The position numbers were made by a program, and so were the translations under genes. Below, one piece after another: positions 9,895 to 48,719 of a stretch of DNA of 64,000 nt. The stretch is from Sandaracinus amylolyticus. GTDB lineage: Bacteria; Myxococcota_A; Polyangia; Polyangiales; Sandaracinaceae. The stretch is taken from NCBI RefSeq assembly GCF_021631985.1, contig NZ_CP070225.1, forward strand, positions 930,001-994,000, in the 5' to 3' direction. The notes under the pieces were generated by a model. The model did not search any database. It had not been told where the DNA came from and saw only the letters and a list, made by a program, of their open reading frames with translations. How positions within the stretch are numbered: position 1 is the first letter of the stretch; the number at the start of each line of letters is the position of its first letter.

Positions 9895-9988
9895 ATGGGT
9901 CGCGGATCTCCAACCCTCGACTACGAGGGTGCCAGTCAGTGCTGGATTCCCGATTGGCGTGCTCATGTCGCCGGTCGTGAGGTCTGCG

Positions 9989-11458
9989 ATGCACGGCACG
10001 CGATTGCGAGGCCGCGCGGCGGTGATCGCAGTGGCGACGTGCCTCGCTGCTGCATCGAGCCCGTCGCGCGGTGAGGCCCAGCTCGAGCGCGCGACGGTGC
10101 TGCGCGCGCTCGATGCATTCGACTCCTACGACCTGCGCGGCGCGTCCGCGACGTTCGACGCGATCGAGCTGCTCACGCCGACGAACCCCGACGTGAGCGG
10201 GATCGGCGGCGAGCCGCGCCTGGCGCGTGCTCGCGCGGCGACCGACATCTGGCTCGTCTCGTATCTCGATCCGCGCCAGCACCGGCTCGAGGCGCGCCTC
10301 GCGCAGGCGATGGGCGTTCCGAGCTTCTCGATCGAGCCGACGCTGCGCGACGAGCTGGACCGGCTCGGTCGTGGCGAGCTCGGAGAGGCCGCGCGCGACG
10401 TGCGACAAGGGCTCGCGCTGCGCGACGCGATCGAAGCGGGCGAGCCGGTCTCGTTCGCGGGCACCACCGGCGTGCGCCGCGACGCGCTGCTCGTGCACGT
10501 GGTCGGGACGGCGATCCAGGACGGCGACGACTCCGAGCTGGTGTCGTGGTTCGAAGATCCGTGCGGAGAGGGCCTGCCCTGCGACCCGCCGCTCTCGAGC
10601 TGGGCTCCGCCGAGCCGCATCATCGCCGCGGCCTTGGTCGAAGCGAGCGCGGCCTACGAACGGCTCGATCAGTCGTGGAACGAGGGCGACGCGTTCGCGC
10701 GCGCCGTCTGGCCGGCGCTGCAGGACGACGCGCGACGGCTGCAGAACCACGTGCACCATCCGATGCCGATCGTCGCCGAGGGCACGCCGATCTCGCACGC
10801 GCCCTACGACGACGGAGATCCGGCGCGCGCCGATCTGATCGTGGGCGTCGGCGAGCGCGGCGTGCGGGTGCTCCGCATCGCGCCGGTCCGTGTGCGTGAC
10901 GGACGCCTCGAGCCGCTCGGCGAGAGCCCGCCGTCGATCGACGTCGACGTGCCGAGCGCCGCCGACGCCGAGCCGCCCGCGCTCGATGCGCTCGTGGAGC
11001 GACTGCGCAACGTCGAGCTCGCGCCCGAGGCGGTCGTCGCGGTCGGTGCGGCGGACGACGTGCCCGCCGAGCGCCTCCAGCGCGTGCTCGCGTCGATGGT
11101 CGCGGCCCAGCGCGCGCCGACCACGCTGGTGCGCACCGCGAGCGACGGCAGCCTGCGCGAGGTGCCGATGCGCGTGATCGACGACTACGCTGCGGGCGCG
11201 CCCGGTGACGTGTTCGTCGAGCTGCGCCCGACGGGCTATGCGGTCACCGGCACCGACCGCGATCCTGCGGAGATCCCGCGCGTCGCTGCGATGAGCCTCG
11301 CGCCGCTCGACGAGGACGCGCTCGAGGCGTTGATCGGCTCGGTGCCCGGACGTCGCGTCGTGGTGCGCGCGGCGGGCGCGCTGCCCGCGCGCGAGCTGAT
11401 CGACACCGCGTTCCGCGTCGCCGAGGACGGCGATCTGGTGGCGCTGGTCGGGCAGTAG
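9989..11458 (+). CDS. Secreted protein of unknown function; 3' end is the phage attachment site
   Basis: 489 residues from ATG 9989, chosen because GAGG lies 6 bases upstream and it begins a clean signal peptide (MHGTRLRGRAAVIAVATCLA ... GEAQ). In-frame GTG 9929 and ATG 9965 are alternatives without an RBS. The N-terminal half is helical with acidic/basic pairs. The C-terminal part has segments such as AVVAVGAADDVPAERLQRVL that faintly recall ExbD/TolR periplasmic domains; this is not a firm assignment. The TAG stop (11456-11458) lies within the 17-bp attL core, and an identical copy at attR would leave the same stop in the empty site, so integration does not alter the protein. Confidence 0.75.
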   Translation: MHGTRLRGRAAVIAVATCLAAASSPSRGEAQLERATVLRALDAFDSYDLRGASATFDAIELLTPTNPDVSGIGGEPRLARARAATDIWLVSYLDPRQHRLEARLAQAMGVPSFSIEPTLRDELDRLGRGELGEAARDVRQGLALRDAIEAGEPVSFAGTTGVRRDALLVHVVGTAIQDGDDSELVSWFEDPCGEGLPCDPPLSSWAPPSRIIAAALVEASAAYERLDQSWNEGDAFARAVWPALQDDARRLQNHVHHPMPIVAEGTPISHAPYDDGDPARADLIVGVGERGVRVLRIAPVRVRDGRLEPLGESPPSIDVDVPSAADAEPPALDALVERLRNVELAPEAVVAVGAADDVPAERLQRVLASMVAAQRAPTTLVRTASDGSLREVPMRVIDDYAAGAPGDVFVELRPTGYAVTGTDRDPAEIPRVAAMSLAPLDEDALEALIGSVPGRRVVVRAAGALPARELIDTAFRVAEDGDLVALVGQ

Positions 11459-11464
11459 CGCCAT
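11448..11464. repeat. attL core, 17-bp direct repeat
   Basis: TCGGGCAGTAGCGCCAT occurs here and again at 48703-48719, exactly at the change from host-like to phage-like sequence on both sides. It contains the TAG stop of the upstream host gene. Confidence 0.85.
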
Positions 11465-11511: not shown

Positions 11512-11539
11512 CTTCGATCCCCACTTCGATCCCCACTTC
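11512..11539. repeat. Tandem arm-type repeats inside attL
   Basis: Two tandem copies of CTTCGATCCCCA (11512-11523, 11524-11535) plus CTTC. The 21 bases 11519-11539 recur perfectly at 48588-48608, inside the right end. Position just internal to each core and tandem arrangement fit integrase arm-binding sites. The remaining stretch to 11660 holds palindromes ACCCAGCTGGGT and TTTCCCTTGGGAAA but no gene. Confidence 0.65.
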
Positions 11540-15846: not shown

Positions 15847-17073
15847 TCACGCTCCCTTCACGAGCTGGAAGACGGTGTTGATGACTGCGAGCTTCTCTTC
15901 GTGCGAGGCGTGCGAGTAGATGTGCCCGGTCTCCTCGTCGGCGTGGCCGATGATCGACTGACGCACCAGCTCAGACGCCGTTTGGCGGATCAGGTTGTTC
16001 ATCGTGTGGCGCAAGCAGTGAAGGGCAGGGCGCGTCCCGAGTTCGATCGGCTTCTTGTCGGGCCCCACTTTCGCCGCGGCACACACGGCCAGCATCGCCT
16101 TTCGCACCGAGAAGTTCCGCAGGTACTTCCCGATCTTGCCGTTCTTGGTCTCCTGCCCGAACTGCGGCGACGGGAAGACGATCCCCGAGTCGAACCCCTT
16201 GATCTGCTTCGCCAGTAGCCACTGGCGGTAGTTCTTGAGCACCTCCACGACGTCAGCCTGGAGAGGTACGTCGCGCACGGAGGCCACGGCCTTCGGGTGT
16301 CCTAGATGTCCTCGCCACTGCGCTCGACGTACTCGGCATACGCCCTTGTCGAGATCGATGTCGCGCCACTCCAGGGCACTCGCTTCGCCGTAGCGCATCC
16401 CGGTCGCGGCCATGAGGAACAGCAGCGCCCACATGCGCGGCCAGCCCTTGTGCTTCCGAGCCGTTGGACCGGCGAGCAGCCAGGCGCGGTACTCGTCCAC
16501 CGACAGCCCTCGGCCCGTCTCGCTGATCTCGTCCGACTCGGGGTCGAAGGGCCTTGCGAGCACCTTGACGCCCTTGGTCACGTGCTCGTTCTCCGTCGCT
16601 TTTGCGAAATATCGCAGAATCCGCAGGCGCTGGTTGATCGTCGTGATGCCGGCACCACCCTCCTGCCATCCGATCATCGTCTCCGCGACGTGCTTGGACG
16701 GGTGCACCTTCTCGACGAAGTAGTCAGCGATAGGGGTTCCAAGCCACCCCTTGACCGCGAGTCGATAGGTGTTGAAGGCGGAAGGCTTCAGGTGCTTCTT
16801 GGTCTCCAGCCATGCGGTCAGGGCTTCACCCAGGCGCTGCTTGGGCTGTTCGACCTCTTCGCGCGCGCTGAGCCATTTCTCGCGCAGCTGTTCGCGGATC
16901 AAGGCTGCCTCTTGACCGCTCTTCGCTTCGATCCGGCGATCGATCTCGTGTCGGTAGCCGGTCAGCGGATCGGTCACCACGGCGCGCACGCGGTATAGGC
17001 CGATCCCCGGCTTGCCCTGAACGGGTCCCAGGTACTCGATCCCCCTGACTGACTGAAGCTTCTTCTTGGCCAT
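15847..17073 (-). CDS. int: Tyrosine-recombinase integrase
   Basis: 408 residues, the usual size for phage integrases. An N-terminal arm-binding region (~1-75) precedes a core-binding SAM-like domain (~80-165) and the catalytic domain. Catalytic residues are visible: Arg227 in ATGMRYGE, His352-x-x-Arg355 in HCLRHTM, His377 in IIGHADEE and nucleophile Tyr386 in GHIYSHAS. It would recombine the 17-bp core at the ends of this prophage. AAGG is 7 bases upstream of the ATG. The excisionase-like frame overlaps its 5' end in another reading frame. It sits about 4.4 kb inside attL rather than at the edge. Confidence 0.95.
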   Translation of the reverse strand: MAKKKLQSVRGIEYLGPVQGKPGIGLYRVRAVVTDPLTGYRHEIDRRIEAKSGQEAALIREQLREKWLSAREEVEQPKQRLGEALTAWLETKKHLKPSAFNTYRLAVKGWLGTPIADYFVEKVHPSKHVAETMIGWQEGGAGITTINQRLRILRYFAKATENEHVTKGVKVLARPFDPESDEISETGRGLSVDEYRAWLLAGPTARKHKGWPRMWALLFLMAATGMRYGEASALEWRDIDLDKGVCRVRRAQWRGHLGHPKAVASVRDVPLQADVVEVLKNYRQWLLAKQIKGFDSGIVFPSPQFGQETKNGKIGKYLRNFSVRKAMLAVCAAAKVGPDKKPIELGTRPALHCLRHTMNNLIRQTASELVRQSIIGHADEETGHIYSHASHEEKLAVINTVFQLVKGA

Positions 17074-18810: not shown

Positions 18811-19449
18811 TCAGGCTGTGAGCTTGCTGCAGATCGAGGCGACGATCTGCGCGTTCTCCGTGGCGTTTCCCACGGAATCGCTTTGGGCAATCGTTGAGTT
18901 GCCGCTCTTCTCTGCGAGGCGAAGGATCGCCTTCTGGAATAGGGGCCCAGGGTTCTGACCCTTCGCAGCGAGCATGACGCGCGACCAGATGTCCACAAGC
19001 TGGTCGTGCAGCTCGTCACCTACTTCCGGGTTCTTCGCCAGGAAGAAGCCGTAACCGAGTAGGACGCCTGCAGGCGTGCCGTGGCTCGTCTTCGTCTTTG
19101 TCGACGAGTTCAGCTTCGCCATACGCCGACCGACGCTCACGGGGATCAGCTGCTTGATCGCATCGACAACTTCCTGAGGTGTGCGGGGGTCATTGGCTGG
19201 ATAGACGTATGAGGGCGCGTCGTCGTCCAGACACAAGGTCAACGACCGAAGCGGCGCCGCTGTGTGTTCGGGCGAACCGATCTCAGGGATCTGAGCCTGG
19301 AGCAGTTCCTTGACTTGTGCGCTCCAAGGCTTCTTCGGTGCCTTTGAAGGTGAGAGCAGCTCGGTGATCTGCTTCTCGACGATACGGACCTGGTCCAAGA
19401 GGTCGACCCTTTTAGCCTGCAGTGCGCATAGTTCTGATGTGATGTCCAT
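18811..19449 (-). CDS. Phage protein with N-terminal coiled coil, unknown
   Basis: 212 residues. An N-terminal heptad-rich helix (AKRVDLLDQVRIVEKQITEL, ~13-32), a Lys/Pro linker, then a mostly helical C-terminal domain containing LHDQLVDIWSRVMLAAKGQN and a final helix near STIAQSDSVGNATENAQIVA. No enzyme motif seen. Its place between the polymerase-like gene and small genes suggests an accessory replication or regulatory role, by position only. Confidence 0.7.
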   Translation of the reverse strand: MDITSELCALQAKRVDLLDQVRIVEKQITELLSPSKAPKKPWSAQVKELLQAQIPEIGSPEHTAAPLRSLTLCLDDDAPSYVYPANDPRTPQEVVDAIKQLIPVSVGRRMAKLNSSTKTKTSHGTPAGVLLGYGFFLAKNPEVGDELHDQLVDIWSRVMLAAKGQNPGPLFQKAILRLAEKSGNSTIAQSDSVGNATENAQIVASICSKLTA

Positions 19450-19548: not shown

Positions 19549-19935
19549 TCACCACTTTCGCGAACGGCGCTCCTGTCGTTCACGTTCGATCGCCACTGCC
19601 AGTTCGGCACGGAGCTTCTCCTGGTCAGGGAGGTTCCACTCGCTCGACTCAACCTGAACAGTGGAAGCTGTTGCTTCTGGTGTGCGCTTACGCGGTCTGC
19701 CTGGACGCTTGCTCCCGAAAGTCAGGTTCACCCCACGCGCCTGGGAGACATCGTACAAGCTCCAGCCATCGGCTGTTTGGCCCAAGTACGCAGCAACGCG
19801 AACTCTCCTGGTCCTGGTGGTGGCGTTCGGTGAGAGCTCAACTTCGATCTCTTCACCGACGCTGGGTGAGTACCCTTGGATCTTCATGCGGTACCGCGTG
19901 CCTCGCGGTCTTGTGAGCTTTGCTCTGTAGGTCAT
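19549..19935 (-). CDS. Small protein with AT-hook-like motif
   Basis: 128 residues. The N-terminal half alternates beta-like segments (TRYRMKIQGYSPSVGEEIEV, VRVAAYLGQTADGWSLYDV). A basic RPGRPRKR motif at ~77-84 matches the core of AT-hook DNA-binding peptides. The C-terminus is a charged helix (KLRAELAVAIERERQERRSR). Ends about 100 bases before the 18811 gene. A DNA-binding accessory role is inferred. Confidence 0.7.
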   Translation of the reverse strand: MTYRAKLTRPRGTRYRMKIQGYSPSVGEEIEVELSPNATTRTRRVRVAAYLGQTADGWSLYDVSQARGVNLTFGSKRPGRPRKRTPEATASTVQVESSEWNLPDQEKLRAELAVAIERERQERRSRKW

Positions 19936-19952: not shown

Positions 19953-21746
19953 TCAGTGAGCCATTACCCAGCCGTCGAAGTGGCTGGAGTCGTCAATCTC
20001 GAAGCTGTTGGTGGGCAGCTCCACCCAGAACCCGCGTCGCGCGGGGTCTCGCAGGCGCGAGAACGCGCCCATGAGCCGGATCCCCAACTCCCAGGGCTTC
20101 AGGCCATCACCTCGAATGAGTTCGCACTCGATGGCGTCGCCGATGCTCTCGGAGGTCACGCCCGCTGCGAGCGTCTTCTCGATCGCGCTCTTCACCTTCG
20201 CGCGCGTCTTGCCTCTCCCCAGGCAATCGAGGGACGGCGGCAGCTCGATGTTGTCCAGGCGTGCAGGAGCCTCTACAGCCATCGCGCACGGCGTGGTGGT
20301 GGCTTCGTCCAGGCTGGGGCCGTTCGTGGCTTCCTGGAGGCGTACAGCGCCTGCAATGCGCTTCAATCGCGGTGCCTGTCCAAGTAGGTCTGTCCATGCC
20401 GCTGTCATGACCTGGGCGAGCAGCTCTTCTGCACTCGCAGGCACGACGAACGAGTCATGGATTGCGAAGCAGGGGATCCCGGCAGCGGTCATGGCGAGCA
20501 GAACTCGTTCGGCGATCTGCGAGTCGAGATACATCAGTCTCCAGTTGCCCTTGTAGAAGTCGCCAGCGACAGGGGCGTGATGCTTCACGTAGGCGTCGCG
20601 CACGTGCTTGGGTGCGATGCCCTCGGGAAGTACGAGACCGTTCTTCGCAAGTTCTTTAGTGATGGCCGAGCACGCACCCTTGGGCGAGGTCGCGTTCAGC
20701 ACGCACATGCTCACCGTCTTATAGACGTCCCTACTGACCTCCACGCCCCTCGTCAGCTTCGACGGTACGGTGTACGGGTCTTCAGGTACTGCGAGGCCTC
20801 GAAGGGCATACAGCATCGCGGGGTGACAGTGGCGGAAGTCGACTTCGACTGTCGGCTCGTCGTTCACGTAGAGGTGCTGACGAGAGTTCACCTCATGAAC
20901 TCGACCGTCAGCACCCTTCATGCGTGAGGGGAGAGACTGAGCCGTCGTGTAGAACCTACCGTGGTGGTCTAGATCAAAGTGAAAGACCCTCTTGTACGGT
21001 GAGATCGTGAAGGACAGGGCAGGGAGTGTATTAGTAACGTACGTGGTGGTGATGAGTTCTTGGAACTGATCTCTGTGTGCCGTTGTTCTGTCCAGCTTGT
21101 CCAATGTTGCAGGCAAGTTGATCTCAGCCATGCGTTGGATGTGAGAGACAGGGAGAGACCAGGCTTGCCGACACTGAAAATCGTTGATTCGTCTCAGGTT
21201 CTCTTGGAGTGTATTAGTAACGTACGTGGTGGTGGTAGAGATCTTCTTCTCCCTGATGTCCACTCTGTCTAGTACTACGTCTCTCGATACCAACTCGGTC
21301 ATGTTCCACAGTGTGAGCGCGTCTGACGTACCAAGCTCCAACTGCATCCAAGCTGAGAGTTCGAACCGTGAGCACCTGCTCATCGTCGAATCGTCCTTTG
21401 AGTGAAACCCAAGGGTGTGATCCACTACTCCGAGTTTGATCAGTGTCTTCACGCTGGCGATCAGGGTCTTGTACGAGCAGCCCATCTGCTTCGTCATCTG
21501 TTCCTTGTTCCACACGCTGTAGTTGCGTGAATAGGCTACAGGCAGACCCTTCACAAGAGCTCGGATCCCGTTTCCGAGCAGTACGGCGATCGCGTCGCTC
21601 CACTCACCACTAGTAATACGCATCAGTGCATCAGACTGATGGGCGCGCACTTTCGGGTTTAGCCAGTGTGCGGCGTCAAAATCAGCTGTTCTTGTGGTTG
21701 TTTCTGCTCGATCTGAGCTCGTCAGAGTGCTAAACTTATCGTGCAC
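19953..21746 (-). CDS. Winged-helix protein with T7-like single-subunit polymerase motifs (putative replication protein)
   Basis: 597 residues from GTG 21746 (AAGGA upstream). Residues ~45-130 resemble a winged helix-turn-helix (WNKEQMTKQMGCSYKTLIAS), as in replication initiators. Residues ~255-435 carry the ordered landmarks of T7-type RNA polymerase: DLDHHGRFY (cf. DWRGRVY), motif A VEVDF with Asp303, motif B R339-x3-K343-x3-M347-x3-N351-A352 (cf. R-x3-K631-x3-M-x3-Y639-G), and motif C AIHDSF with Asp431 (cf. D812). Tyr639, the ribose-sensing residue of T7 RNAP, is Asn here. At 597 residues it is much shorter than the ~880 of T7 RNAP. No other replication enzyme is visible in the prophage, so it may be primase, replicase or transcription enzyme. 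A perfect 29-bp repeat lies within the gene. Confidence 0.7.
   Translation of the reverse strand: MHDKFSTLTSSDRAETTTRTADFDAAHWLNPKVRAHQSDALMRITSGEWSDAIAVLLGNGIRALVKGLPVAYSRNYSVWNKEQMTKQMGCSYKTLIASVKTLIKLGVVDHTLGFHSKDDSTMSRCSRFELSAWMQLELGTSDALTLWNMTELVSRDVVLDRVDIREKKISTTTTYVTNTLQENLRRINDFQCRQAWSLPVSHIQRMAEINLPATLDKLDRTTAHRDQFQELITTTYVTNTLPALSFTISPYKRVFHFDLDHHGRFYTTAQSLPSRMKGADGRVHEVNSRQHLYVNDEPTVEVDFRHCHPAMLYALRGLAVPEDPYTVPSKLTRGVEVSRDVYKTVSMCVLNATSPKGACSAITKELAKNGLVLPEGIAPKHVRDAYVKHHAPVAGDFYKGNWRLMYLDSQIAERVLLAMTAAGIPCFAIHDSFVVPASAEELLAQVMTAAWTDLLGQAPRLKRIAGAVRLQEATNGPSLDEATTTPCAMAVEAPARLDNIELPPSLDCLGRGKTRAKVKSAIEKTLAAGVTSESIGDAIECELIRGDGLKPWELGIRLMGAFSRLRDPARRGFWVELPTNSFEIDDSSHFDGWVMAH
21023..21051. 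repeat. 29-bp direct repeat, copy A, inside the polymerase-like gene
   Basis: Perfect match to 21206-21234, 183 bases (61 codons) away, hence in the same frame; both copies encode TTTYVTNTL (residues 233-241 here). Contains the palindrome ACGTACGT. Could be iteron-like origin sites or a recent internal duplication. Confidence 0.8.
21206..21234. repeat. 29-bp direct repeat, copy B, inside the polymerase-like gene
   Basis: Second perfect copy of the 29-bp unit, encoding TTTYVTNTL at residues 172-180. Flanking sequences of the two copies are unrelated, so similarity is limited to the unit itself. Confidence 0.8.
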
Positions 21747-21806
21747 GGCGTTCTGTCCTTTCGTCGTGTTCGTTCTGTCTCAGTCCCATGTGTTTCTCCA
21801 GTCCTG

Positions 21807-21841
21807 CCCCTGGTGGTCACAAGCCACCAGGGGTTTTCTCT
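21807..21841 (+). terminator. Strong intrinsic terminator in the divergent control region
   Basis: CCCCTGGTGG (21807-21816), 7-base loop, CCACCAGGGG (21824-21833), then TTTTCTCTTT. The T-run makes it a terminator for rightward transcripts; for leftward transcripts it is a leader hairpin upstream of the polymerase-like gene. No annotated rightward gene ends here, implying a short or antisense rightward RNA. Confidence 0.8.
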
Positions 21842-21861
21842 TTGGAGAGAGGAGTCCTGTA

Positions 21862-21890
21862 AGGATAGCGCGCTTTATGCGTTTATGCAA
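21862..21890 (-). promoter_or_regulatory. Leftward early promoter
   Basis: On the minus strand TTGCAT (21890-21885), a 17-base spacer and TATCCT (21867-21862). Expected to drive the polymerase-like gene and downstream early genes. A tandem TTTATGC repeat overlaps the spacer and -35 box and could be an operator. Confidence 0.55.
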
Positions 21891-21910
21891 TGGCAGACTG
21901 GCACTCTTCA

Positions 21911-21919
21911 TGCTATCAT
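21911..21919 (+). promoter_or_regulatory. Extended -10 promoter for the HTH gene
   Basis: TGCTATCAT forms an extended -10 (TGnTATCAT). The ATG of the next gene lies 7 bases after it and there is no Shine-Dalgarno sequence, so the mRNA would be nearly leaderless. It is back-to-back with the leftward promoter. Confidence 0.5.
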
Positions 21920-21926
21920 AGAGTCT

Positions 21927-22259
21927 ATGAAGGTGAACGCTGTAACCATTCCAATTGCCATCCTCGCTGCAGAGGGCCTCACACCAGCAGCCAAGCTTGT
22001 TGGCGCATACGTCTGTAGCGTCCCGCACGCAAGCGTGTCTTCCACGTGTCGTGCGACGTGCCTGCACCCTGTGACAGTGCGCAAGGCCATCAAGGAACTG
22101 ATGGATGCTGGTCTAATCAGTGGGCAACGCGAGAAGTGGTCTTGGAGCCTGTCGTCTACAGGCAGTGCGGCTTCCACCTCACCAGCTGACCCATCGCAGC
22201 CAATCACTCTTGGGGCGATCGCGGAACTGGTTGGACTGTTGAAGGCCAACAAGCAGTGA
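21927..22259 (+). CDS. Helix-turn-helix protein, candidate phage regulator
   Basis: 110 residues from ATG 21927; the frame is open further upstream but that part overlaps the promoter and terminator. Residues ~10-70 form a winged-helix-like region (LTPAAKLVGAYVCSVPHASV, then CLHPVTVRKAIKELMDAGLI). A Ser/Ala-rich linker and a short C-terminal helix (AIAELVGLLKANKQ) follow. First rightward gene of the divergent region. A switch or repressor role is inferred from position; it is not a recognisable CI or Cro. Confidence 0.7.
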   Translation: MKVNAVTIPIAILAAEGLTPAAKLVGAYVCSVPHASVSSTCRATCLHPVTVRKAIKELMDAGLISGQREKWSWSLSSTGSAASTSPADPSQPITLGAIAELVGLLKANKQ

Positions 22260-22268
22260 CCATCATAT

Positions 22269-22340
22269 CCGGGCGTGGGTCATTGGCTGACCACGCGGTT
22301 TGGGGCCGCGCATAACTCAGTTCGATTCTGGGCGCTCGGA
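22269..22340 (+). tRNA. tRNA-Pro (UGG), phage-encoded
   Basis: Complete 72-nt cloverleaf: acceptor CCGGGCG/CGCTCGG (one G-T pair), D-arm GGTC-ATTGGCT-GACC, anticodon stem CGCGG/CCGCG around TTTGGGG (anticodon TGG), variable loop CATAA, T-arm CTCAG-TTCGATT-CTGGG, discriminator A. No CCA is encoded. It lies 9 bases after the HTH gene and 14 bases before the next ATG, so it is embedded in the rightward transcript. Confidence 0.9.
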
Positions 22341-22354
22341 GTAGGAGAAACACC

Positions 22355-23272: not shown

Positions 23273-23820
23273 GAGCCAAGAGAACTGCACGCACTGCGCT
23301 TGAAGGGCACATGACTTCCACCGAGAAGAAGATCGCGAAGCTCGAAGCCGAGATCGCTCGACTGCGCGCAGACCGCGCGACCACGAAGAAGCTGATCGAG
23401 GCGTACGACGCTGAACACGCTGACCAGCCCACCGAGGTCAACGAGACAGCTACGACAGTCCAGGTTGAGGTTGAGCCGACAACTGATGACGCTGCAGCTC
23501 GTGCAGCCGCAGTAGCGCTGCTCTCCCAGCTCGAACCGCCCGTAGATGAGCTTGACGAGCTGCCCGAAGATGAGCGCGTCGTGCGTCGTCCTGCACGCGC
23601 TCTCCAGCTCGGTGACCTGATGCGCCCCCTCGACTTTGACTCGGAGGATCCCGACGTCGAAGAAGACGACGACGAACTCGAAGAAGACGACGAAGACCAC
23701 GACGACGACGAGCAGGACGAAGATCCGTATCCCTACGCGCGCTCTCGTCGTGGCGCTTCGTGGTCATCGTGGTCCAACGAGCAGTTCGTCGCGGCTGCTC
23801 AGTCGCTAGGAGCGTACTGA
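23269..23820 (+). CDS. Coiled-coil protein with very acidic tail
   Basis: 183 residues from ATG 23269 (ATGA overlap, AAGGAGG upstream). N-terminal coiled coil (STEKKIAKLEAEIARLRADR, ~25-45), then an acidic region ending in a run of Asp/Glu (~145-165) and a Tyr/Arg/Ser tail. The acidic low-complexity segment could be a DNA mimic or a scaffold-like element. Stop and next start share a base (TGATG). Function unknown. Confidence 0.7.
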   Translation: MRAKRTARTALEGHMTSTEKKIAKLEAEIARLRADRATTKKLIEAYDAEHADQPTEVNETATTVQVEVEPTTDDAAARAAAVALLSQLEPPVDELDELPEDERVVRRPARALQLGDLMRPLDFDSEDPDVEEDDDELEEDDEDHDDDEQDEDPYPYARSRRGASWSSWSNEQFVAAAQSLGAY

Positions 23821-24356
23821 TGGTGCGCCGGCGGCCTGGTCACACGACACGCAACGGCGGTAACGAACTCGGAACCGGCGGCAGAGAGAAGCTGACGCCC
23901 GAGGTTGTCGATCGCATCTGCGAGCTAATCGCCCAAGGGATGCCGCGCGTCAGTGCCTGCTACGCAAACGACGTGAGCGACATGGCTCTCCGATACGCAC
24001 GACAGCGAGACCCCGAGATCGACGAGAAGGCATCGAAGGCTGAAGCAGCAGGCGCCGAGTTCTACCGGCAAAAGATCATGGAAGCTGCAGACTCTGGCAA
24101 GGCGAAGGATTGGCGCGCATACGAGTCGCTCGCAAAGTCGCTGCACCCAAAGGTGTACGTCGAGCCCGCGAAGCGCATCGAGATGAGCGGCCCTGATGGT
24201 GAATCCCTTGCTCCGCAGGTTCACATCATCGGCGACCCAGTCCGTATCGCGCGCGTCGACGTACAGCAGCTCGAAGCAGCTGCACGCGGTGAGCTACTCG
24301 CCCTGTCATCAGGCGATGACGTCCTGGAGGGCGTAGAAGACTACGAGGATGAGTGA
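23820..24356 (+). CDS. terS: Terminase small subunit-like protein
   Basis: 178 residues from ATG 23820. A basic head is followed by a helix-turn-helix region (LTPEVVDRICELIAQGMPRV SACYANDVSD split by a turn), then DPEIDEKASKAEAAGAEFYR and a helical oligomerisation segment. HTH followed by an acidic-helix region and position two genes before the ATPase subunit match small terminase subunits, which recognise phage DNA for packaging. C-terminus is acidic. Confidence 0.75.
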   Translation: MVRRRPGHTTRNGGNELGTGGREKLTPEVVDRICELIAQGMPRVSACYANDVSDMALRYARQRDPEIDEKASKAEAAGAEFYRQKIMEAADSGKAKDWRAYESLAKSLHPKVYVEPAKRIEMSGPDGESLAPQVHIIGDPVRIARVDVQQLEAAARGELLALSSGDDVLEGVEDYEDE

Positions 24357-24907: not shown

Positions 24908-26329
24908 ATGGGCGAGCCACCAACACCAACAAGACTCTCGCAGCAGGAAGCGATTGCCGCGCTTTGGGCTTCTGGCCAGCTTGCTTACAAGCTCTTCGAC
25001 GTCCAGAAGCAGATGCGCGCCGCGATCGCTGGATCGCGAGAGCGCGTCTTCGTAGTTGAGTGTGCTCGTCGTCTTGGTAAGTCGTTCCTGGCGTGCCTGA
25101 TCGCGATCGAGCACGCGCTACAGCTTCCAAAATCACAGATTCGATTTGCCGCGCCTGATGGCAAGGCGCTCCGCAAGATCATCAATCCGCTCTTCGCACA
25201 GATCCTCTCGGACTGCCCGAAGCACCTACGTCCTGAATACAACACGCAGGACGGCTCGTGGAAGTTCAAGAACGGGTCTGAGATCCATCTCGCAGGCGTC
25301 AACAACGGCAACGCTGACAGCCTCCGTGGTGCAGCTACTCACCTTGCCATCGTAGACGAAGCCGGCTTCGTCGATGAGCTTGAGTACCTGGTTCAGTCCG
25401 TTCTCGTTCCGATGCTCTTGACGACGGACGGACGGGTCATCCTGATCTCGACCCCACCACGTTCGCCCGCGCACGAGTTCGTTGCGTACGCCGCTCGAGC
25501 TGCGCAGCTGGACAGCCACTTCAAGCGCACGATCCACCACGCGAACCACATCTCGTCGGACACGCTCAAGGAGTTCTGTCGCGAAGCTGGTGGCGAAGAC
25601 TCGGTAGCGTGGAGAAGAGAGTACCTCTGCGAGCACATCGCAGACGAGACGCTCTCGGTGCTCCCAGAGTTCTCACGCGTCGAGAAAGAGATCGTGGGCC
25701 CGCACCCACGACCAAGTCACTTCAAGCCAGTCGTCGTTGCTGACGTTGGCTTCAAGGACTACACGGCCGTCCTATTCGGCTATCACGACTTCCGTCAGGC
25801 AGTCGACGTTATTGAAGCCGAGTACGTGACCCACAAGTCGATCGCGAGCGACATCTCAGTAGAGGTCGACAGGATCGCGACGAAGCTATGGGGCGAGCTA
25901 CCAGCGATGCACGCGCCACGGTACGCCGATGCGCCCTTGATCGTACTAGCTGAGCTCGGCTCCAGTTGGGTTGGCGTCGCGAAGACCCGCACCGATGGGA
26001 ACTTCAAAGAAGCCGCTGTGAACGACGTTCGCACGCGTCTCGCCTCTCAGCGGATCCGCATCAACCCAGCCTGTGAACAGCTCTGCAACCACGCGCGCTA
26101 CGCCGTGTGGAACAAGCAGCACACCGACTTCCAGCGCATGCAGGGTTATGGGCACTTCGATGCAGTCGACGCCCTGACGTACTTCGTGCGGCAGGTGGAT
26201 CGCAGCAACCCCTACGGCCCCGACTACTTGAACACCCAAGACATGTGGATCGAGCCACAAAGAAACCGCGAGCGCGAGAACCTGAGAGGGCTCTCCGCTG
26301 GCCCACGATGGAATCGCACGAAGTCGTGA
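24908..26329 (+). CDS. terL: Terminase large subunit
   Basis: 473 residues. ATPase: Walker A-like CARRLGKS (52-59, Lys58), Walker B LAIVDE (146-151; Asp150, Glu151) and coupling motif ISTPP (~180-184). Nuclease: VVVADVGFKDYTAV with Asp279 at the first metal site, and late GYGHFDAVDALTYF with the last acidic residues. It packages DNA into proheads using ATP and cuts concatemers. Starts 10 bases after the previous stop. Confidence 0.92.
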   Translation: MGEPPTPTRLSQQEAIAALWASGQLAYKLFDVQKQMRAAIAGSRERVFVVECARRLGKSFLACLIAIEHALQLPKSQIRFAAPDGKALRKIINPLFAQILSDCPKHLRPEYNTQDGSWKFKNGSEIHLAGVNNGNADSLRGAATHLAIVDEAGFVDELEYLVQSVLVPMLLTTDGRVILISTPPRSPAHEFVAYAARAAQLDSHFKRTIHHANHISSDTLKEFCREAGGEDSVAWRREYLCEHIADETLSVLPEFSRVEKEIVGPHPRPSHFKPVVVADVGFKDYTAVLFGYHDFRQAVDVIEAEYVTHKSIASDISVEVDRIATKLWGELPAMHAPRYADAPLIVLAELGSSWVGVAKTRTDGNFKEAAVNDVRTRLASQRIRINPACEQLCNHARYAVWNKQHTDFQRMQGYGHFDAVDALTYFVRQVDRSNPYGPDYLNTQDMWIEPQRNRERENLRGLSAGPRWNRTKS

Positions 26330-26345: not shown

Positions 26346-27287
26346 ATGACGACACCGAATTCAGGATCGACAGGATCACCAACACCGAGCGCACCCGGGG
26401 CAGAGTCTGCGCCCGCGGTTGAGCAGACTCAGACGCAGGGTGGAACGACGCAGGTCCCCGAGACCCCAGCTCAGAAGAAGTACCGTCTTCAGCGTGGGGA
26501 GACGGTTGAAGAGGTTGACGGAAACGCCATCCTCGAAGAGCTGCTTGGCTCCATCGGAGAAGGCGGTGTCGTGCAGGCCGCGCAGATTAGCCGCGAAGCC
26601 CGTAAGCGTATGTCCGAGGCGTCGAGGTTGGAGAAGCAACTTCAGGACGCGTTCAGCGACCTGACGCACCCGGAGCGCGCTCTTCGACTGCTTGAGAAGA
26701 CACTCGGTGGACGCGAGAAGCTCAATCGGATTCTCGAAGATCGATACGCTGCTGACCTCGAAGACCGAATGATGCCCGAGGACCAGCGCAAGATGCGCGA
26801 CATGGAAGCCAGACTTGCTCGCTACGAGAAGGCTGAAGCTGATGCGAGGAAGCGCCAGCAGGAAGAGCAGAAGATCAACGCCACTCAGCAGGCTCAACAG
26901 CAGCTGGGCAAGGCATTCCGTCAGGCCCTCACAGCTGCTGGTGTCGAGGTGACGCCACAGACCATCGCGCGAATGTCGTATCTAGCAGAAGCCGAACTCG
27001 CCCAAGGCATTCCGTTTGATCCGCGCGAGCTGGCGATGATGGTGGCCGACGAGACGAACTCGTACGCAGGCACGAAGCTGAAGAAGCTGGCAGCGAATCC
27101 CGCAGAGCTGGCGGCCGCACTCGGTGAACAGGGCGTGCGCGAGTTCAACAACTACTTGATGGCCCAGGTGAAGGCTAAGCAGCCCACCGTCGCACAAGTA
27201 ACACCCATCAGACGCGAGCGCTCCGCGCCCCAAGAGAAGGGCAAGACGCGTCTGGAAGACTACTACGCGTCGAAGAACAAGAAGTGA
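26346..27287 (+). CDS. Scaffold-like protein
   Basis: 313 residues. Disordered Ser/Thr/Pro/Gly N-terminus, a long charged helical middle (RKRMSEASRLEKQLQDAFSD; ARYEKAEADARKRQQEEQKI) and a C-terminal basic region (EKGKTRLEDYYASKNKK). Composition, size and position between terminase and portal match phage scaffolding proteins that guide prohead assembly. The stop overlaps the portal GTG start (GTGA). Confidence 0.7.
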   Translation: MTTPNSGSTGSPTPSAPGAESAPAVEQTQTQGGTTQVPETPAQKKYRLQRGETVEEVDGNAILEELLGSIGEGGVVQAAQISREARKRMSEASRLEKQLQDAFSDLTHPERALRLLEKTLGGREKLNRILEDRYAADLEDRMMPEDQRKMRDMEARLARYEKAEADARKRQQEEQKINATQQAQQQLGKAFRQALTAAGVEVTPQTIARMSYLAEAELAQGIPFDPRELAMMVADETNSYAGTKLKKLAANPAELAAALGEQGVREFNNYLMAQVKAKQPTVAQVTPIRRERSAPQEKGKTRLEDYYASKNKK

Positions 27288-29401
27288 GTGCGACGATGGA
27301 AATCGCTCCAAGACCGAACGATCGCTACTGGGCAGCCGAGACAGGCGACAAGCTCGCCACGCAGGTTGCGTCCAGATACCTTGAGTACCTGAAGGACCTT
27401 GATGACAAGGGGATGATCGGGATCTGGAACCAGGTCGCATCGGTCTACTACGGCTACGACCCAGGCACAGACGCGTGCGCGACTTGGGTCACGGAAGCAG
27501 GTGAAGCAGGGGAATGGCTCCACCTGCACGTCAACGAGTTCGCCTCGCTGGTTCGCCACCAGCTGCTCTTGACCACTGCTGACAAACTCGCCTTTGAGGC
27601 CAAGGCATCGAACGACTCGCCGGAAGCTGATGCGCAAGCTCACCTAGGCAACCAGGTCATTAGGTTTTATCAGCACGACGGCAAGCTGGAATCCCTGCTT
27701 GTTCAAGCGTGCGAGCGCATGCTGCTCTTTGGTGGCGGTTACCTCGTGCAGCTGTGGGACGCGTTCGCGGGGCCAGAATCAGGCATCGAGTACGTCGCAG
27801 AGCTGGACGACAACGGCGATCCGCTGGTGGAAGTCGTTGAAAGCGACGGGATCCAAGTAGAGCGCCCCGTGATGCGGGAGCGCATCGCGCGCGCTGGAGA
27901 CCTGCGACACCGCGTGTACGCGCCCGTCGATATCGCTCGTGATCTCGGGTGCCAGACGCACGAGGACTCGAAGTGGTTCGTCGTTCGTGAGCGTGTCGAC
28001 AAGTTCGAACTGGCCGCACGTTACCCAGAGCACGCCACGCACATCCTGTCGCGTCCGAGCTGGGAAGCCGACGAGACCTCTCGGTACGACGGGACGACGG
28101 TCCAGCGTAAAGGCCAGCACACCGATCAGATTCACCTGCTTCGACTCGTGCACGCTCGCAGTGAGGTCTTGCCGCACGGGCTCGAAGCCCTCGTGTGCGG
28201 AGAGAAGGTGCTCCAGGCTGGACCCTTGGCCTATCGCCGCATTCCCGTGCACCCAATGGTCGCCCAGGAAGTCGTTGGGCGCGCGATCGGCTACTCCCAG
28301 AACTTCCACCTGCTCGGCCTGCAGTCCGCCTATAACGCGGCAGTCATCAACGGCCTGACAGCGTCAGACGCGGGCTCGATCCCGAAGTGGGCCGTGGCGA
28401 AGGGCTCTGACGTCGAAGTCGAAGACCTCGCGGACGGGCGGATCGTCTACTACAAGCCAAATCCCCAGATGCCGAACTCGGGTGCACCCATGCTGCTGGG
28501 CACCCCTCAATTCTCTGAGGCGTCGATTCAGCAAGCTGCGTTCTTTCAGAGTTCGATGCAGACGCAATCAGGGGTCAACGCGGTTGTGCGTGGCCAGTCC
28601 GAGGGCAAGAGCGGCGCAGACAACGCGCTGATCCAGGCACAAGCCATCCAGTACATGAACGCGAACGTGCGCGCGTTCCAGGACTGCGCTCGCTCGGTAG
28701 GTCTTGGCATCATCGAGACCTTGCAGTCGTTCGCGACAGCCGAACGCATGCTGCAGGTTGTAGGCGACGACGAAGCCCCGGCAGTTGAACTCTTCACGGG
28801 CGAGGACCTCTCCGACATCCGTCAGGTAGATGTCGATATGGGCAACGCCGCGATGCGCACGATGGAAGGCCGCAGAGCAATCGCCTCCGAGCTGCTGGAG
28901 CGATTCCCAGGGAAGATTACTCCCGAACAGTATCTGGCGTTCTACTCTTCGGGTCGCCTAGAGCCGATGTACAAGAGCGACGCGGCGCAGTTCCGTCTGA
29001 TTCGTGGGGAGAACGCCAAGCTGAGCAAGGGCATCGCTCAGCCAGTTCTCGTCTCGGACTGCCACCCCGATCACGTGCGAGAGCACCTCGCAGTGCTCGC
29101 AGCTCCGTCGGTTCGCGAGAACCAGGAGATCACGGGTACCGTACTCGCACATGTGGCGGAGCACCTGAGGCTGTGGGGTGGGGCAGACCCGATGATCATC
29201 GCGGCTACGGGCATGATGCCTCCCCCTTCGCCCATGATGCCGATGCCCGGCGCTCCAATGGGCCCGGACGCGCCTCCTAGTGCTCCAGCAGGTCCAGGGA
29301 GTGGAGACGAGCCCCCACAGGACCGTGCTCAAGTTCCTGGTGCTCCCGAGGAGATCAGCGGCGTGAAAATGCCGCAGATGCCCCAGCCAGCTAGTCAATA
29401 A
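27284..29401 (+). CDS. Portal protein, P22-like
   Basis: 705 residues from GTG 27284 (ATG 27296 is the alternative). Size and order (after scaffold, before coat) match the large portals of P22-like short-tailed phages. Typical features: a helical N-terminal region with NEFASLVRHQLLLTTADKLA, a mid-protein RAIGYSQNFHLLGLQSAYNA, the conserved-looking SGADNALIQAQAIQYMNANV and a Pro/Met/Gly-rich C-terminal tail. It forms the DNA-translocation ring at the capsid vertex. Confidence 0.8.
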   Translation: MSATMEIAPRPNDRYWAAETGDKLATQVASRYLEYLKDLDDKGMIGIWNQVASVYYGYDPGTDACATWVTEAGEAGEWLHLHVNEFASLVRHQLLLTTADKLAFEAKASNDSPEADAQAHLGNQVIRFYQHDGKLESLLVQACERMLLFGGGYLVQLWDAFAGPESGIEYVAELDDNGDPLVEVVESDGIQVERPVMRERIARAGDLRHRVYAPVDIARDLGCQTHEDSKWFVVRERVDKFELAARYPEHATHILSRPSWEADETSRYDGTTVQRKGQHTDQIHLLRLVHARSEVLPHGLEALVCGEKVLQAGPLAYRRIPVHPMVAQEVVGRAIGYSQNFHLLGLQSAYNAAVINGLTASDAGSIPKWAVAKGSDVEVEDLADGRIVYYKPNPQMPNSGAPMLLGTPQFSEASIQQAAFFQSSMQTQSGVNAVVRGQSEGKSGADNALIQAQAIQYMNANVRAFQDCARSVGLGIIETLQSFATAERMLQVVGDDEAPAVELFTGEDLSDIRQVDVDMGNAAMRTMEGRRAIASELLERFPGKITPEQYLAFYSSGRLEPMYKSDAAQFRLIRGENAKLSKGIAQPVLVSDCHPDHVREHLAVLAAPSVRENQEITGTVLAHVAEHLRLWGGADPMIIAATGMMPPPSPMMPMPGAPMGPDAPPSAPAGPGSGDEPPQDRAQVPGAPEEISGVKMPQMPQPASQ

Positions 29402-32030: not shown

Positions 32031-32031
32031 T

Positions 32032-32101
32032 AGGTCAGACACGCGTGGCGCGTGGAGAGCTTCCAACCCTCTCAGACAGAGTTCGATTCTCTGCTGACCT
32101 G
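32032..32101 (+). tRNA. tRNA-Gly (UCC), phage-encoded, slightly irregular
   Basis: Cloverleaf: acceptor AGGTCAG/CTGACCT (perfect), D-arm ACGC-GTGGC-GCGT with a short loop, anticodon stem GAGAG/CCCTC (one A-C mismatch) around CTTCCAA (anticodon TCC), variable TCAGA, T-arm CAGAG-TTCGATT-CTCTG (perfect), discriminator G. No encoded CCA. The small D-loop and the mismatch lower confidence that it is fully functional. Confidence 0.75.
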
Positions 32102-32118
32102 TTTCATGGAGACGAGCG

Positions 32119-44364: not shown

Positions 44365-44595
44365 ATGAGCGACCACGAACTACGAGGGCTGATCCAGGCC
44401 TTGACGATCAAGCTGGACACCACAGCTACACAGGTGCGCGACATCGATCAGAAGCTCGATGACCTTCGCGTGAAGCAGATCCCAGAACTGCGTGCCGAGA
44501 TCGGCGCACTCAAAGTGAAATCAGGTCTGTGGGGTGCTGCAGCTGGGTTTGTCCCAGTGGTGCTCTTGATCGTCGTCCAGCTACTTCGTTCCTGA
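44365..44595 (+). CDS. Holin-like XhlA-type protein
   Basis: 76 residues: an N-terminal coiled coil (TQVRDIDQKLDDLRVKQIPE) and one C-terminal transmembrane helix (LWGAAAGFVPVVLLIVVQLL) with a short Arg-Ser tail. This matches haemolysin XhlA/holin-type phage proteins. It is the last rightward late gene, a usual place for lysis, though no endolysin is recognised beside it. Its 3' end overlaps the convergent abi-type gene by 15 bases. Confidence 0.7.
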   Translation: MSDHELRGLIQALTIKLDTTATQVRDIDQKLDDLRVKQIPELRAEIGALKVKSGLWGAAAGFVPVVLLIVVQLLRS

Positions 44596-45417
44596 CGTGT
44601 TCTTCGCGATCTCTGTGGCGAACGTCGTCGTTAAGAAGTTCGCGAAAGCGCTTGCTGTTACAACGAAGAGCTTCGCTTCGTCCATGTCGGGGAGCTGATC
44701 GCCGGTCTTCTTGCCGTGACGGATCGCCCCTGCGTTGTTCGTGTACTTGTAGAGAGCCTTCCAGCCGTTCGCGAAGTCTTCCTGCAGCCCCTGACCTTTG
44801 AGCTTCTCCAGCGTGACGCCCAGCGTGCTCTGCTCGTCTCCGGTGATGCACCTCGTCAGCGATTCTAGGGCGGAGATCGCTTCCTTGATCGCGTTGCGCG
44901 GGTCGGGATTCATCCTGTCACCGAGGCTGTCGAGTGCTTGCGTCATGTGAATTCGCACCCCGTCGAGTGGAGACGCGAGCGCCGTCTCGATCGCCGCGAT
45001 CTCAGTAGGATCCGTGATCGGGACCAGCTGCTTCCCAACGAAGTGCCAGGCCGCCTGCTCGTCTCTGAGCACGCGATTCACGGCCTCGGGACTGATGATG
45101 TTGAAGATGTCGTGGGTGACGCAGTGCTCAAGAAGGTCGTACGCCTGATACCACTGCCCGTCCATGACGATCCCACGTAGGAACCCGATGTACTCGGGCT
45201 CTTTTCTGGGGATCGTATCGAGGGACTCCCGAAGTACTTCGTCCCAAAGTACGGTGACGAACTGCTCCAGACTCGTGCCCCAGTACTTCGAGTGGTGATA
45301 GGCGAATACCGGGTGCATCAGCGACCAAAGCCGATTCCGCAGCTCCTGGGGCATTTGGAAGGGGTAAAGCGGCACGCGAGCCGGTCCAAAACCGAGGCGA
45401 CGGGAGAACGTGGACAA
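44581..45417 (-). CDS. AbiJ-type abortive-infection protein
   Basis: 278 residues from TTG 45417 (GGAG 6 bases upstream); a GTG at 45465 would add 16 residues. The N-terminus (STFSRRLGFGPARVPLYPFQ, then MPQELRNRLWSLMHPVF and LDTIP) matches the AbiJ N-terminal domain 4 pattern. The C-terminal half (DPRNAIKEAISALESLTRCI; LYKYTNNAGAIRHGKKTGDQ; AKLFVVTASAFANFL) resembles the HEPN-like domain of AbiJ proteins, which act as RNA-targeting toxins in phage defence. It sits at the prophage right end on the strand opposite the late genes, as lysogenic-conversion genes do. Confidence 0.75.
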   Translation of the reverse strand: MSTFSRRLGFGPARVPLYPFQMPQELRNRLWSLMHPVFAYHHSKYWGTSLEQFVTVLWDEVLRESLDTIPRKEPEYIGFLRGIVMDGQWYQAYDLLEHCVTHDIFNIISPEAVNRVLRDEQAAWHFVGKQLVPITDPTEIAAIETALASPLDGVRIHMTQALDSLGDRMNPDPRNAIKEAISALESLTRCITGDEQSTLGVTLEKLKGQGLQEDFANGWKALYKYTNNAGAIRHGKKTGDQLPDMDEAKLFVVTASAFANFLTTTFATEIAKNTSGTK

Positions 45418-45495
45418 TGGCGGCTCCTCTCCAGAGAGAGGATAGCCCAGCTGGGCGACCAACACCTACGGATCACCCTCCGGGGCGAGCAGTGT

Positions 45496-47632: not shown

Positions 47633-48370
47633 CTAGGGTCCCTTCTTCTTCGGAACCGTGTTGGGATCCTTCGCATCGAGCTTCGCCATGCGCTCAGCGT
47701 GGGAGCCAGGGCGGATGTAGAAGTGATCCACGAGCCCTGCGATCAGTTCCAGACACCACTCAGCTTCTTCCCTGGTCGCATCAACGACCTGACCCGCAGT
47801 GTCCAGCTTGAGGTGAGCAGCCAGGTTCCCGATCCTGCGGATCGCATGCAGGAGAGAATCACCCAGGTACGAGGGGAGCTGCTTCGACGCCTCTTCGATC
47901 TCGCCGTAGAGATCCTTCGCCTTGATCTGCTTGTCGTGCAGGATCGCCTGCATCACTCGACGCGAGAGAGCAGCACTGGCCTTCGTGCTCACGTCCAGCG
48001 TCATGTGAGCCTCGGCAATATCCTCCGCGATGTGCTTGGGCACGTACTTGGAGACCTCAGGCACTGCGCGGAATCGAGGCCACAGCAACTCCGCGCCACT
48101 GTAGGCGACTTCGAACCCCGTCGCAGCAATGCCGGAGTTGGTGAGCGTGGCAGAGGTGGGCCTGCCGAACGTTCGATGCACGTACTTGATGACAGTGCGC
48201 TTGCAAGACGGACAACGACCTACCCACAACGCTCGCCTCGCCTGGTCGTCAGCGACAGGAATCTCGCCGTCGACCTGATGCGCGCTCTGTGGATCACGCA
48301 CCGCGGTCTTGAACGTCACGCTACGCAAGCAGTGCGGGCACTCTCCGTCACTATCAACGAGACCACGCAT
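47633..48370 (-). CDS. DUF4145-like (HEPN-type) protein with zinc ribbon
   Basis: 245 residues. N-terminal zinc-binding Cys pairs (CPHCLRS ... CPSCKRT) and a C-terminal helical domain with the DUF4145 pattern: DVSTKASAALSRRVMQAILH, DKQIKAKDLYGEIEEASKQL and LHAIRRIGNLAAHLKLDTAG. RIGNLAAH provides an R-x6-H motif as in HEPN ribonucleases. DUF4145 domains occur in restriction-linked and defence genes, often with a partner. Here the gene stands alone as the last one before attR. Confidence 0.75.
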   Translation of the reverse strand: MRGLVDSDGECPHCLRSVTFKTAVRDPQSAHQVDGEIPVADDQARRALWVGRCPSCKRTVIKYVHRTFGRPTSATLTNSGIAATGFEVAYSGAELLWPRFRAVPEVSKYVPKHIAEDIAEAHMTLDVSTKASAALSRRVMQAILHDKQIKAKDLYGEIEEASKQLPSYLGDSLLHAIRRIGNLAAHLKLDTAGQVVDATREEAEWCLELIAGLVDHFYIRPGSHAERMAKLDAKDPNTVPKKKGP

Positions 48371-48587
48371 CGACCACGCTCGCTCTCATTCAGGCCGGCA
48401 CCCTCACCGACCGGGCCGAATCACCTCTGCGTCGCCAGTAGCTGGAGCGCAAGAGGGACAAGAGCTGGATCACCCATAGGGGTGACTAGTAGCCACGAGC
48501 ACGAAGCCAGCGCTTGGGCAGCCTGGAGAGCGGAATCAGGCGCCCCGTTTGACCTCCGGATCCGCGCGCAAACAACTCCCAGCGCGT

Positions 48588-48618
48588 CCCCACTTCGATC
48601 CCCACTTCGGCCCCACGT
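48588..48618. repeat. Arm-type repeats inside attR
   Basis: 48588-48608 is a perfect copy of 11519-11539, followed by a third partial unit (GGCCCCAC). GTGGGGAC at 48639-48646 is a further inverted partial copy. The 48371-48702 stretch contains no gene. Confidence 0.65.
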
Positions 48619-48702: not shown

Positions 48703-48719
48703 TCGGGCAGTAGCGCCAT
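48703..48719. repeat. attR core, 17-bp direct repeat
   Basis: Second copy of TCGGGCAGTAGCGCCAT. Host-type sequence resumes immediately, and the ATG of the oxygenase gene follows 11 bases later, so the prophage may separate this gene from its original upstream sequence. Confidence 0.85.

Follow-up and report, generated by a model that had tools for sequence, protein, structure and literature searches.

How does a tailed prophage copy its DNA when a single gene for replication can be recognised in it? This question is raised by a 64,000-nucleotide stretch of the Sandaracinus amylolyticus genome (contig NZ_CP070225.1, positions 930,001 to 994,000; hereafter the window, with positions counted from its first nucleotide), which contains an integrated prophage of 37,238 bp bounded by 17-bp attachment (att) repeats. 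The gene in question encodes a protein of 597 residues, in which a predicted winged helix-turn-helix (wHTH) domain precedes a core that almost certainly has a polymerase fold and an intact active site. With a probability of roughly 0.65, this protein is a TV-Pol-type A-family DNA primase-polymerase that replicates the 37-kb prophage after excision. It most likely belongs to the TV-Pol (transposon/virus) kind, mostly unlabelled and little-studied enzymes of mobile DNA that probably initiate and elongate DNA strands, and would not be a new kind of polymerase. The gene and its recognisable parts are located as follows:

19953..21746, minus strand: gene for the wHTH plus TV-Pol-like polymerase, 597 aa, GTG start at 21746, PHROG_4756 match (E 4e-50)
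21252..21641, minus strand: N-terminal winged-helix domain (residues 36-165), from the structural model and its matches
20949..20975, minus strand: hairpin motif DLDHHGRFY (residues 258-266) with invariant R264
20823..20849, minus strand: motif A, VEVDFRHCH (residues 300-308), with catalytic D303 and with His308 at the steric-gate site, in register with D705/E710 of Pol I
20691..20732, minus strand: motif B, R339-x3-K343-x7-N351-A352, in register with R754/K758/Y766-G767 of Pol I
20451..20459, minus strand: motif C, H430-D431-S432, with the second catalytic Asp

The original prediction, made from the letters of the window, had given the exact length and coordinates of this 597-residue open reading frame (ORF), but the frame runs along the minus strand, and many stops interrupt the plus-strand reading of the interval. 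The motifs then quoted (DLDHHGRFY, VEVDF, R339-x3-K343-x7-N351-A352 and AIHDSF) are all present in the protein. An AAGGA sequence is located about 10 nt upstream of the GTG, and the gene, with a GC content of 57.7%, is single-copy in the 10.96-Mb host genome.

The fold was predicted with AlphaFold2 (AF2) on an alignment of 39 homologues, which are 20-31% identical to the window protein. The predicted local distance difference test score (pLDDT) of the model is above 90 across residues 290-460, and a polymerase palm, for which structure prediction had been recommended as a check, is seen in it. The VIA structural alignment to apicoplast Pol A covered 256 residues at 3.9 Å and gave Z 15.2, and Z values of about 13-14.5 were obtained with Bst, Taq, Klenow, T7 DNA polymerase and Pol theta, so that the A-family matches fall at Z 13-15, while the best Foldseek E for the model was 1.3e-5. 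The fold and the two catalytic Asp residues, D303 and D431, which are present in 39/39 homologues, support the earlier proposal of a small single-subunit palm polymerase. Helices are modelled before the hairpin, where TV-Pols have a two-helix thumb, at residues 175-191, 200-218 and 222-238, although pLDDT is 56-66 over 211-240. The polymerase core ends near residue 470, followed by a C-terminal region of about 130 residues that is modelled with low confidence and has no matches, and no exonuclease family was found in the 597-aa protein.

When residues 36-165 were modelled alone, pLDDT was 79.5 and the elements followed the order helix-helix-helix-wing. Nearly every PDB match to this segment is a winged-helix protein (MarR, ArsR, Fur and ORC; Z 6-7.3), with a best Foldseek E of 0.02. 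Although each of these scores is modest, the matches are uniform and thus support the wHTH-like N-terminus that had been read from the sequence. Moreover, this domain recurs in most homologues, so that the fusion of wHTH and polymerase is an old architecture of the family; it is found in nearly all of them, and the novelty first attributed to it is lost.

Since the quoted motifs are conserved across the 39-member alignment at 20-31% identity, they are not the product of chance. R264, R289, E301, D303, Y325, R339, K343, D408, H430 and D431 are invariant (39/39), and residue 351, whose conservation was to be checked among homologues, is Asn in 38 of the 39. In the alignment to the Pol A profile (E 0.055), D303 pairs with D705, H308 with E710, R339 with R754, K343 with K758, and N351-A352 with Y766-G767, which agrees with the earlier placement of Asn-Ala at the Tyr639-Gly position of T7 RNA polymerase (RNAP). 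Five residues beyond the catalytic Asp of motif A, 37/39 homologues have His (His308 in the window protein) and 2/39 have Gln; the corresponding E710 of Pol A and G542 of T7-like RNAPs are each invariant in the reference alignments built for comparison.

These two positions have to be considered together. In Klenow, Glu710 is the steric gate excluding ribonucleotides, and Glu710 and Tyr766 interact. By position, His308 may act as a steric gate like Glu710. Because position 308, the likely partner of Asn351, is altered as well, Asn351 cannot be read by itself as a change in the discrimination between ribo- and deoxynucleotides, as had been suggested. The change at 308 and the interaction between Glu710 and Tyr766 in Klenow make a co-changed nucleotide pocket, formed by His308 and Asn351, a better reading than a simple loss of discrimination. 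Nor is the Asn at the Tyr639/Tyr766 site a novelty or a peculiarity of the window protein, since it is family-wide and also occurs in gp030 of phage Ma-LMM01.

TV-Pols are polymerases of superfamily A that are reduced to a minimal core and encoded by mobile elements. Some of them have an additional N-terminal domain, and their genes adjoin those of D5 helicases, resolvases or integrases; one TV-Pol has been reported in phage Ma-LMM01 (Iyer, Abhiman and Aravind 2008, PMC2579912). The gp030 protein was taken as this TV-Pol because of its motifs, the transposases beside it and the naming of that phage in the paper, and a profile was composed of gp030 and two small-plasmid relatives. Of the polymerase profiles compared, TV-Pol was the closest (E 1e-4), followed by Pol A (0.055) and T7-like RNAP (0.14); these profiles are small and the E-values indicative only. 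The resemblance to T7 RNAP put forward in the original prediction thus gives way to closer relationships.

The window protein shares with TV-Pols a core of hairpin, palm and fingers without exonuclease and with two catalytic Asp residues, the absolutely conserved hairpin Arg (R264, 39/39, aligned to the TV-Pol hairpin), the RxxxK of the fingers (invariant R339 and K343), and an extra N-terminal domain, which occurs in a subset of TV-Pols. The mobile context is also TV-Pol-like, with a tyrosine integrase and the 17-bp att repeats in the window and a D5 helicase and a serine recombinase in the family. With gp030 it shares His at motif A +5 and Asn at the Tyr position. In contrast, the N-terminal domain of TV-Pols is predicted to be all-helical, whereas that of the window protein models as a winged helix. 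Moreover, the Arg of RxxxK, kept in the window family, is absent from gp030 and from a relative encoded on a Polaromonas plasmid, and the latter carries Tyr-Gly at motif B, unlike the window family. The gene of this relative, on a plasmid of 11.2 kb (L085, 6095-7600), is labelled as a Clp protease N-terminal domain protein, and that of another gp030 relative, on a Calothrix plasmid of 13.7 kb (L084, 12335-13693), is unannotated.

More distant members of the superfamily share the fold. Pol A and T7 DNA polymerase match it at Z 13-15 with motifs A and B in register, but the window protein differs from Pol A in its lack of exonuclease domains, in the changes of E710 to His and Y766 to Asn, and in an identity of about 10-15%. 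T7 and mitochondrial RNAPs have in common with it the superfamily fold, the HDS of motif C and RxxxK; the differences are His308 in place of Gly542, Asn351 in place of Tyr639, the lack of the large N-terminal promoter domain and the weaker profile match (E 0.14).

A functional model is provided by CCPol of the staphylococcal SCC elements, a characterised TV-Pol. It is an A-family polymerase that uses deoxynucleoside triphosphates (dNTPs) and becomes a primase once bound to the protein MP, an OB-fold partner encoded beside it (PMC7581432, PMC10061031). When bound to MP, it primes de novo with dNTPs (PMC7581432), and a helicase is also provided by its element (PMC7581432, PMC10061031). By description, CCPol resembles the window protein as an A-family polymerase of a mobile element with two catalytic Asp residues and no exonuclease activity, belonging to a replication module. 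The positional counterpart of MP, by position only, is a 128-aa ORF situated immediately downstream of the polymerase gene in the same leftward gene run:

19549..19935, minus strand: 128-aa ORF following the polymerase gene after a gap of 17 bp, candidate operon partner
18811..19449, minus strand: 212-aa ORF of the leftward run that includes the polymerase gene, without a family

The 128-aa ORF has no family match in Pfam or PHROGs and no homologues in phages or viral contigs, and no homologues of the 212-aa ORF were found among 139 other genomes of the phylum. On the other side, the divergent neighbour of the polymerase gene (21741-22259, plus strand) has an HTH_36-type winged helix (E 1e-4) that resembles replication initiators, and its product is possibly a regulator or an initiator. 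The polymerase gene itself contains a perfect 29-bp direct repeat, GGAGTGTATTAGTAACGTACGTGGTGGTG, in two copies (21023-21051 and 21206-21234) located 183 bp apart (61 codons, in frame), so that TTTYVTNTL is encoded twice in the thumb region. A palindrome, ACGTACGT, is located inside this repeat, the core of which has no other mismatch-free copy in the host genome. A clear iteron array was sought near the polymerase gene as a candidate origin, and none was found.

The family to which the protein belongs is widespread. PHROG_4756, which it matches over nearly its full length (E 4e-50), is annotated as 'unknown function', and 282 phage records match at E up to 1. The phage members have the same wHTH and polymerase architecture and the same motifs, and their carriers include ICP1, Vibrio, Aeromonas and Pseudoalteromonas phages, Shewanella phage KASIA and the Rheinheimera Barba phages, the matches of the latter being weak by BLAST and strong by profile. 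These phages are mostly of 80-145 kb; some have other replication genes and several carry two copies. Bacterial carriers comprise Rhodobacterales and other lineages. A related integrase is found near the family member at 18 loci and a serine recombinase beside another, and some relatives adjoin toxin-antitoxin or restriction-modification genes. In G288, a genome of the same order as the window host, the gene for a 374-aa member and that for a D5-type helicase (PF08706, PF19263) are separated by 10 bp, and a serine recombinase is encoded nearby, an arrangement characteristic of TV-Pols (PMC2579912). The idea that the family works without any other replication partner was rejected because of this adjoining helicase. 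In the family tree, the branch of the window copy is deep and long, and no close partner of it is well supported. When viral contigs were searched with the window protein alone, no relatives were found, and a 12-row profile held no stretch conserved enough for scanning, whereas narrower alignments worked.

Some bacterial copies appear to be split across frames (L031, L032, L033, L044 and L047, from Paracoccus and another Rhodobacteraceae), while that of P. versutus (L007) is intact; the polymerase gene may be decaying in some islands. Three genomes of one genus in the same phylum as the window host (G013, G058 and G068) have several PHROG_4756 matches each, in up to four places, and their proteins are longer (about 500-700 aa), with Cys following the motif B Asn.

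The prophage that carries the polymerase gene has the following features:

11448..11464, plus strand: left attachment core, TCGGGCAGTAGCGCCAT
48703..48719, plus strand: right attachment core, identical 17 bp
15847..17073, minus strand: tyrosine integrase (PF00589 E 2.7e-13, PHROG_1 E 1e-40)
23760..24356, plus strand: small terminase (Sf6-type)
24908..26329, plus strand: large terminase
27284..29401, plus strand: portal protein (PHROG_156 E 1.3e-19)

In a sister genome (G008), the flanking host DNA meets at one copy of TCGGGCAGTAGCGCCAT, which is the empty site, and the GC content of the element is 61.6% versus 72-74% in the flanks. The left core spans the final codons and the TAG stop of a 509-aa host ORF (9929-11458), so that integration would restore the 3' end of that ORF. 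Copies of CTTCGATCCCCAC at 11512-11539, 48587-48609 and 48758, at most about 120 bp from both cores, are possibly arm-binding sites of the integrase. Given the integrase, the terminases, the portal and the head and internal virion proteins also encoded, the element is a tailed prophage. Near its right end, the product of 44581-45465 (minus strand) contains AbiJ N-terminal domain 4 and Abi_C, and is probably an abortive-infection defence protein; a gene for a DUF4145 protein (47633-48370, minus strand) adjoins the right att site and is possibly cargo. ARAGORN called tRNA-Pro(tgg) at 22268-22341 and tRNA-Gly(tcc) at 32031-32102, where Rfam at its gathering threshold found no tRNA, and both calls may be degenerate or false. 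Among the element ORFs scanned against Pfam and PHROGs, no other helicase, primase, polymerase or single-stranded DNA-binding protein (SSB) was recognisable. Within these databases the description of the polymerase as the only visible replication gene holds, and many ORFs of the element match nothing, so an unrecognised replication partner within it is possible.

Several observations weigh against a TV-Pol-type replicase of the prophage. HMMER searches of Pfam, NCBIfam and the PDB gave no convincing polymerase match for the core by sequence, the weak matches being PHROG_414 RNA polymerase at the C-terminus (0.15), PF00940 in one member (0.15) and winged helices. Moreover, the hhalign alignment to the TV-Pol profile (E 1e-4), with motifs in register, had a probability of 56% and a profile of three sequences. 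Unlike typical TV-Pol genes, the window copy is located in a tailed prophage in which no D5 helicase is recognisable, and an SSB-like partner was not recognisable in the element either. Furthermore, the presence of two copies in 3/7 large phages checked argues against the family being the main replicase in every case, and a role as sole replicase is difficult to reconcile with KASIA, where a full-length RNA polymerase and a primase are encoded separately, near the family member, or with the Barba phages, which also have a DNA polymerase and a primase.

Could the protein instead be a miniature phage-specific RNA polymerase, whose wHTH would read phage promoters while a T7-RNAP-like core transcribes late genes? 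Mitochondrial and T7 RNAPs stand high in the structural ranking, where the Z of Pol A is little above that of yeast mitochondrial RNAP (15.2 vs 13.3, but the latter with an rmsd, or root-mean-square deviation, of 10.2 Å), HDSF is a motif in common with T7 RNAP, PHROG_414 RNA polymerase is weakly matched at the C-terminus (E 0.15), and a DNA-binding head suits a promoter. Nevertheless, a bulky His or Gln stands where RNAPs carry Gly542, Tyr639 is absent, TV-Pol and then Pol A are the nearest profiles, the relatives accompany integrases and a D5 helicase, and KASIA possesses its own full-length RNAP besides its family member, which makes this explanation quite unlikely. Because of the profile distances, the bulky residue at motif A +5 and the separate RNAP of KASIA, the protein is probably a DNA enzyme using dNTPs and not a T7-like transcriptase. 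Of the two functions left open by the original prediction, replication or priming is plausible, whereas T7-like transcription is disfavoured by His308 and the order of the profiles.

The two copies in several large phages and the other replication genes in some, the relatives found in small integrase or resolvase islands and next to toxin-antitoxin or restriction-modification genes, and the island copies that look frameshifted would also suit an accessory or selfish-element polymerase, like those of small TV-Pol transposons, captured by the prophage, which might copy a mobile segment or repair ends without being the replicase. This is unlikely for the window gene, which is intact, is the only recognisable replication gene of its element, and belongs to the leftward gene run of the integrase without any bounded insert of its own. 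A palm protein that has lost its catalytic activity and become a wHTH initiator or regulator has a precedent in some RRM-only proteins of the CCPol-like operons, which have lost catalytic Asp residues (PMC10061031), and the wHTH could work alone, but the invariance of the metal- and triphosphate-binding residues in the family renders it very improbable.

Under the preferred interpretation, a TV-Pol-type primase-polymerase, the analogy with CCPol suggests a sequence of binding, priming and extension after excision with a borrowed helicase. The N-terminal winged helix would bind the origin or template of the element, and the core of palm, fingers and thumb would copy DNA from dNTPs by a two-metal mechanism through D303 and D431. 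R339 and K343 would hold the incoming triphosphate, R264 and its hairpin would contact the template, and His308 and Asn351 would line the bottom of the nucleotide pocket, where Pol I has Glu710 and Tyr766. The protein may make its own primers, either unaided or together with a partner, for which the 128-aa downstream protein is a candidate, and unwinding would be supplied by the host or by an unrecognised protein of the element. A role in replication of the element is somewhat favoured, and for de novo priming by the window protein the analogy leaves the chances about even. It is a speculative possibility that one wHTH-polymerase chain with a His-Asn pocket combines origin binder, primase and replicase as the sole replication protein of a tailed phage.

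If this were true, a single chain that binds, primes and copies would constitute a very compact replication system, and the conserved His-Asn pair, compared with Glu-Tyr in Pol I and Gly-Tyr in T7 RNAP, would represent an unstudied basis of sugar selection. The members of PHROG_4756, among them that of the well-studied cholera phage ICP1, carry the label of hypothetical proteins. The link to TV-Pols provides a testable function for a gene found in many mobile islands and hundreds of phage records, and the conserved His-Asn pair is a natural experiment in the preference of A-family polymerases for deoxy- over ribonucleotides.
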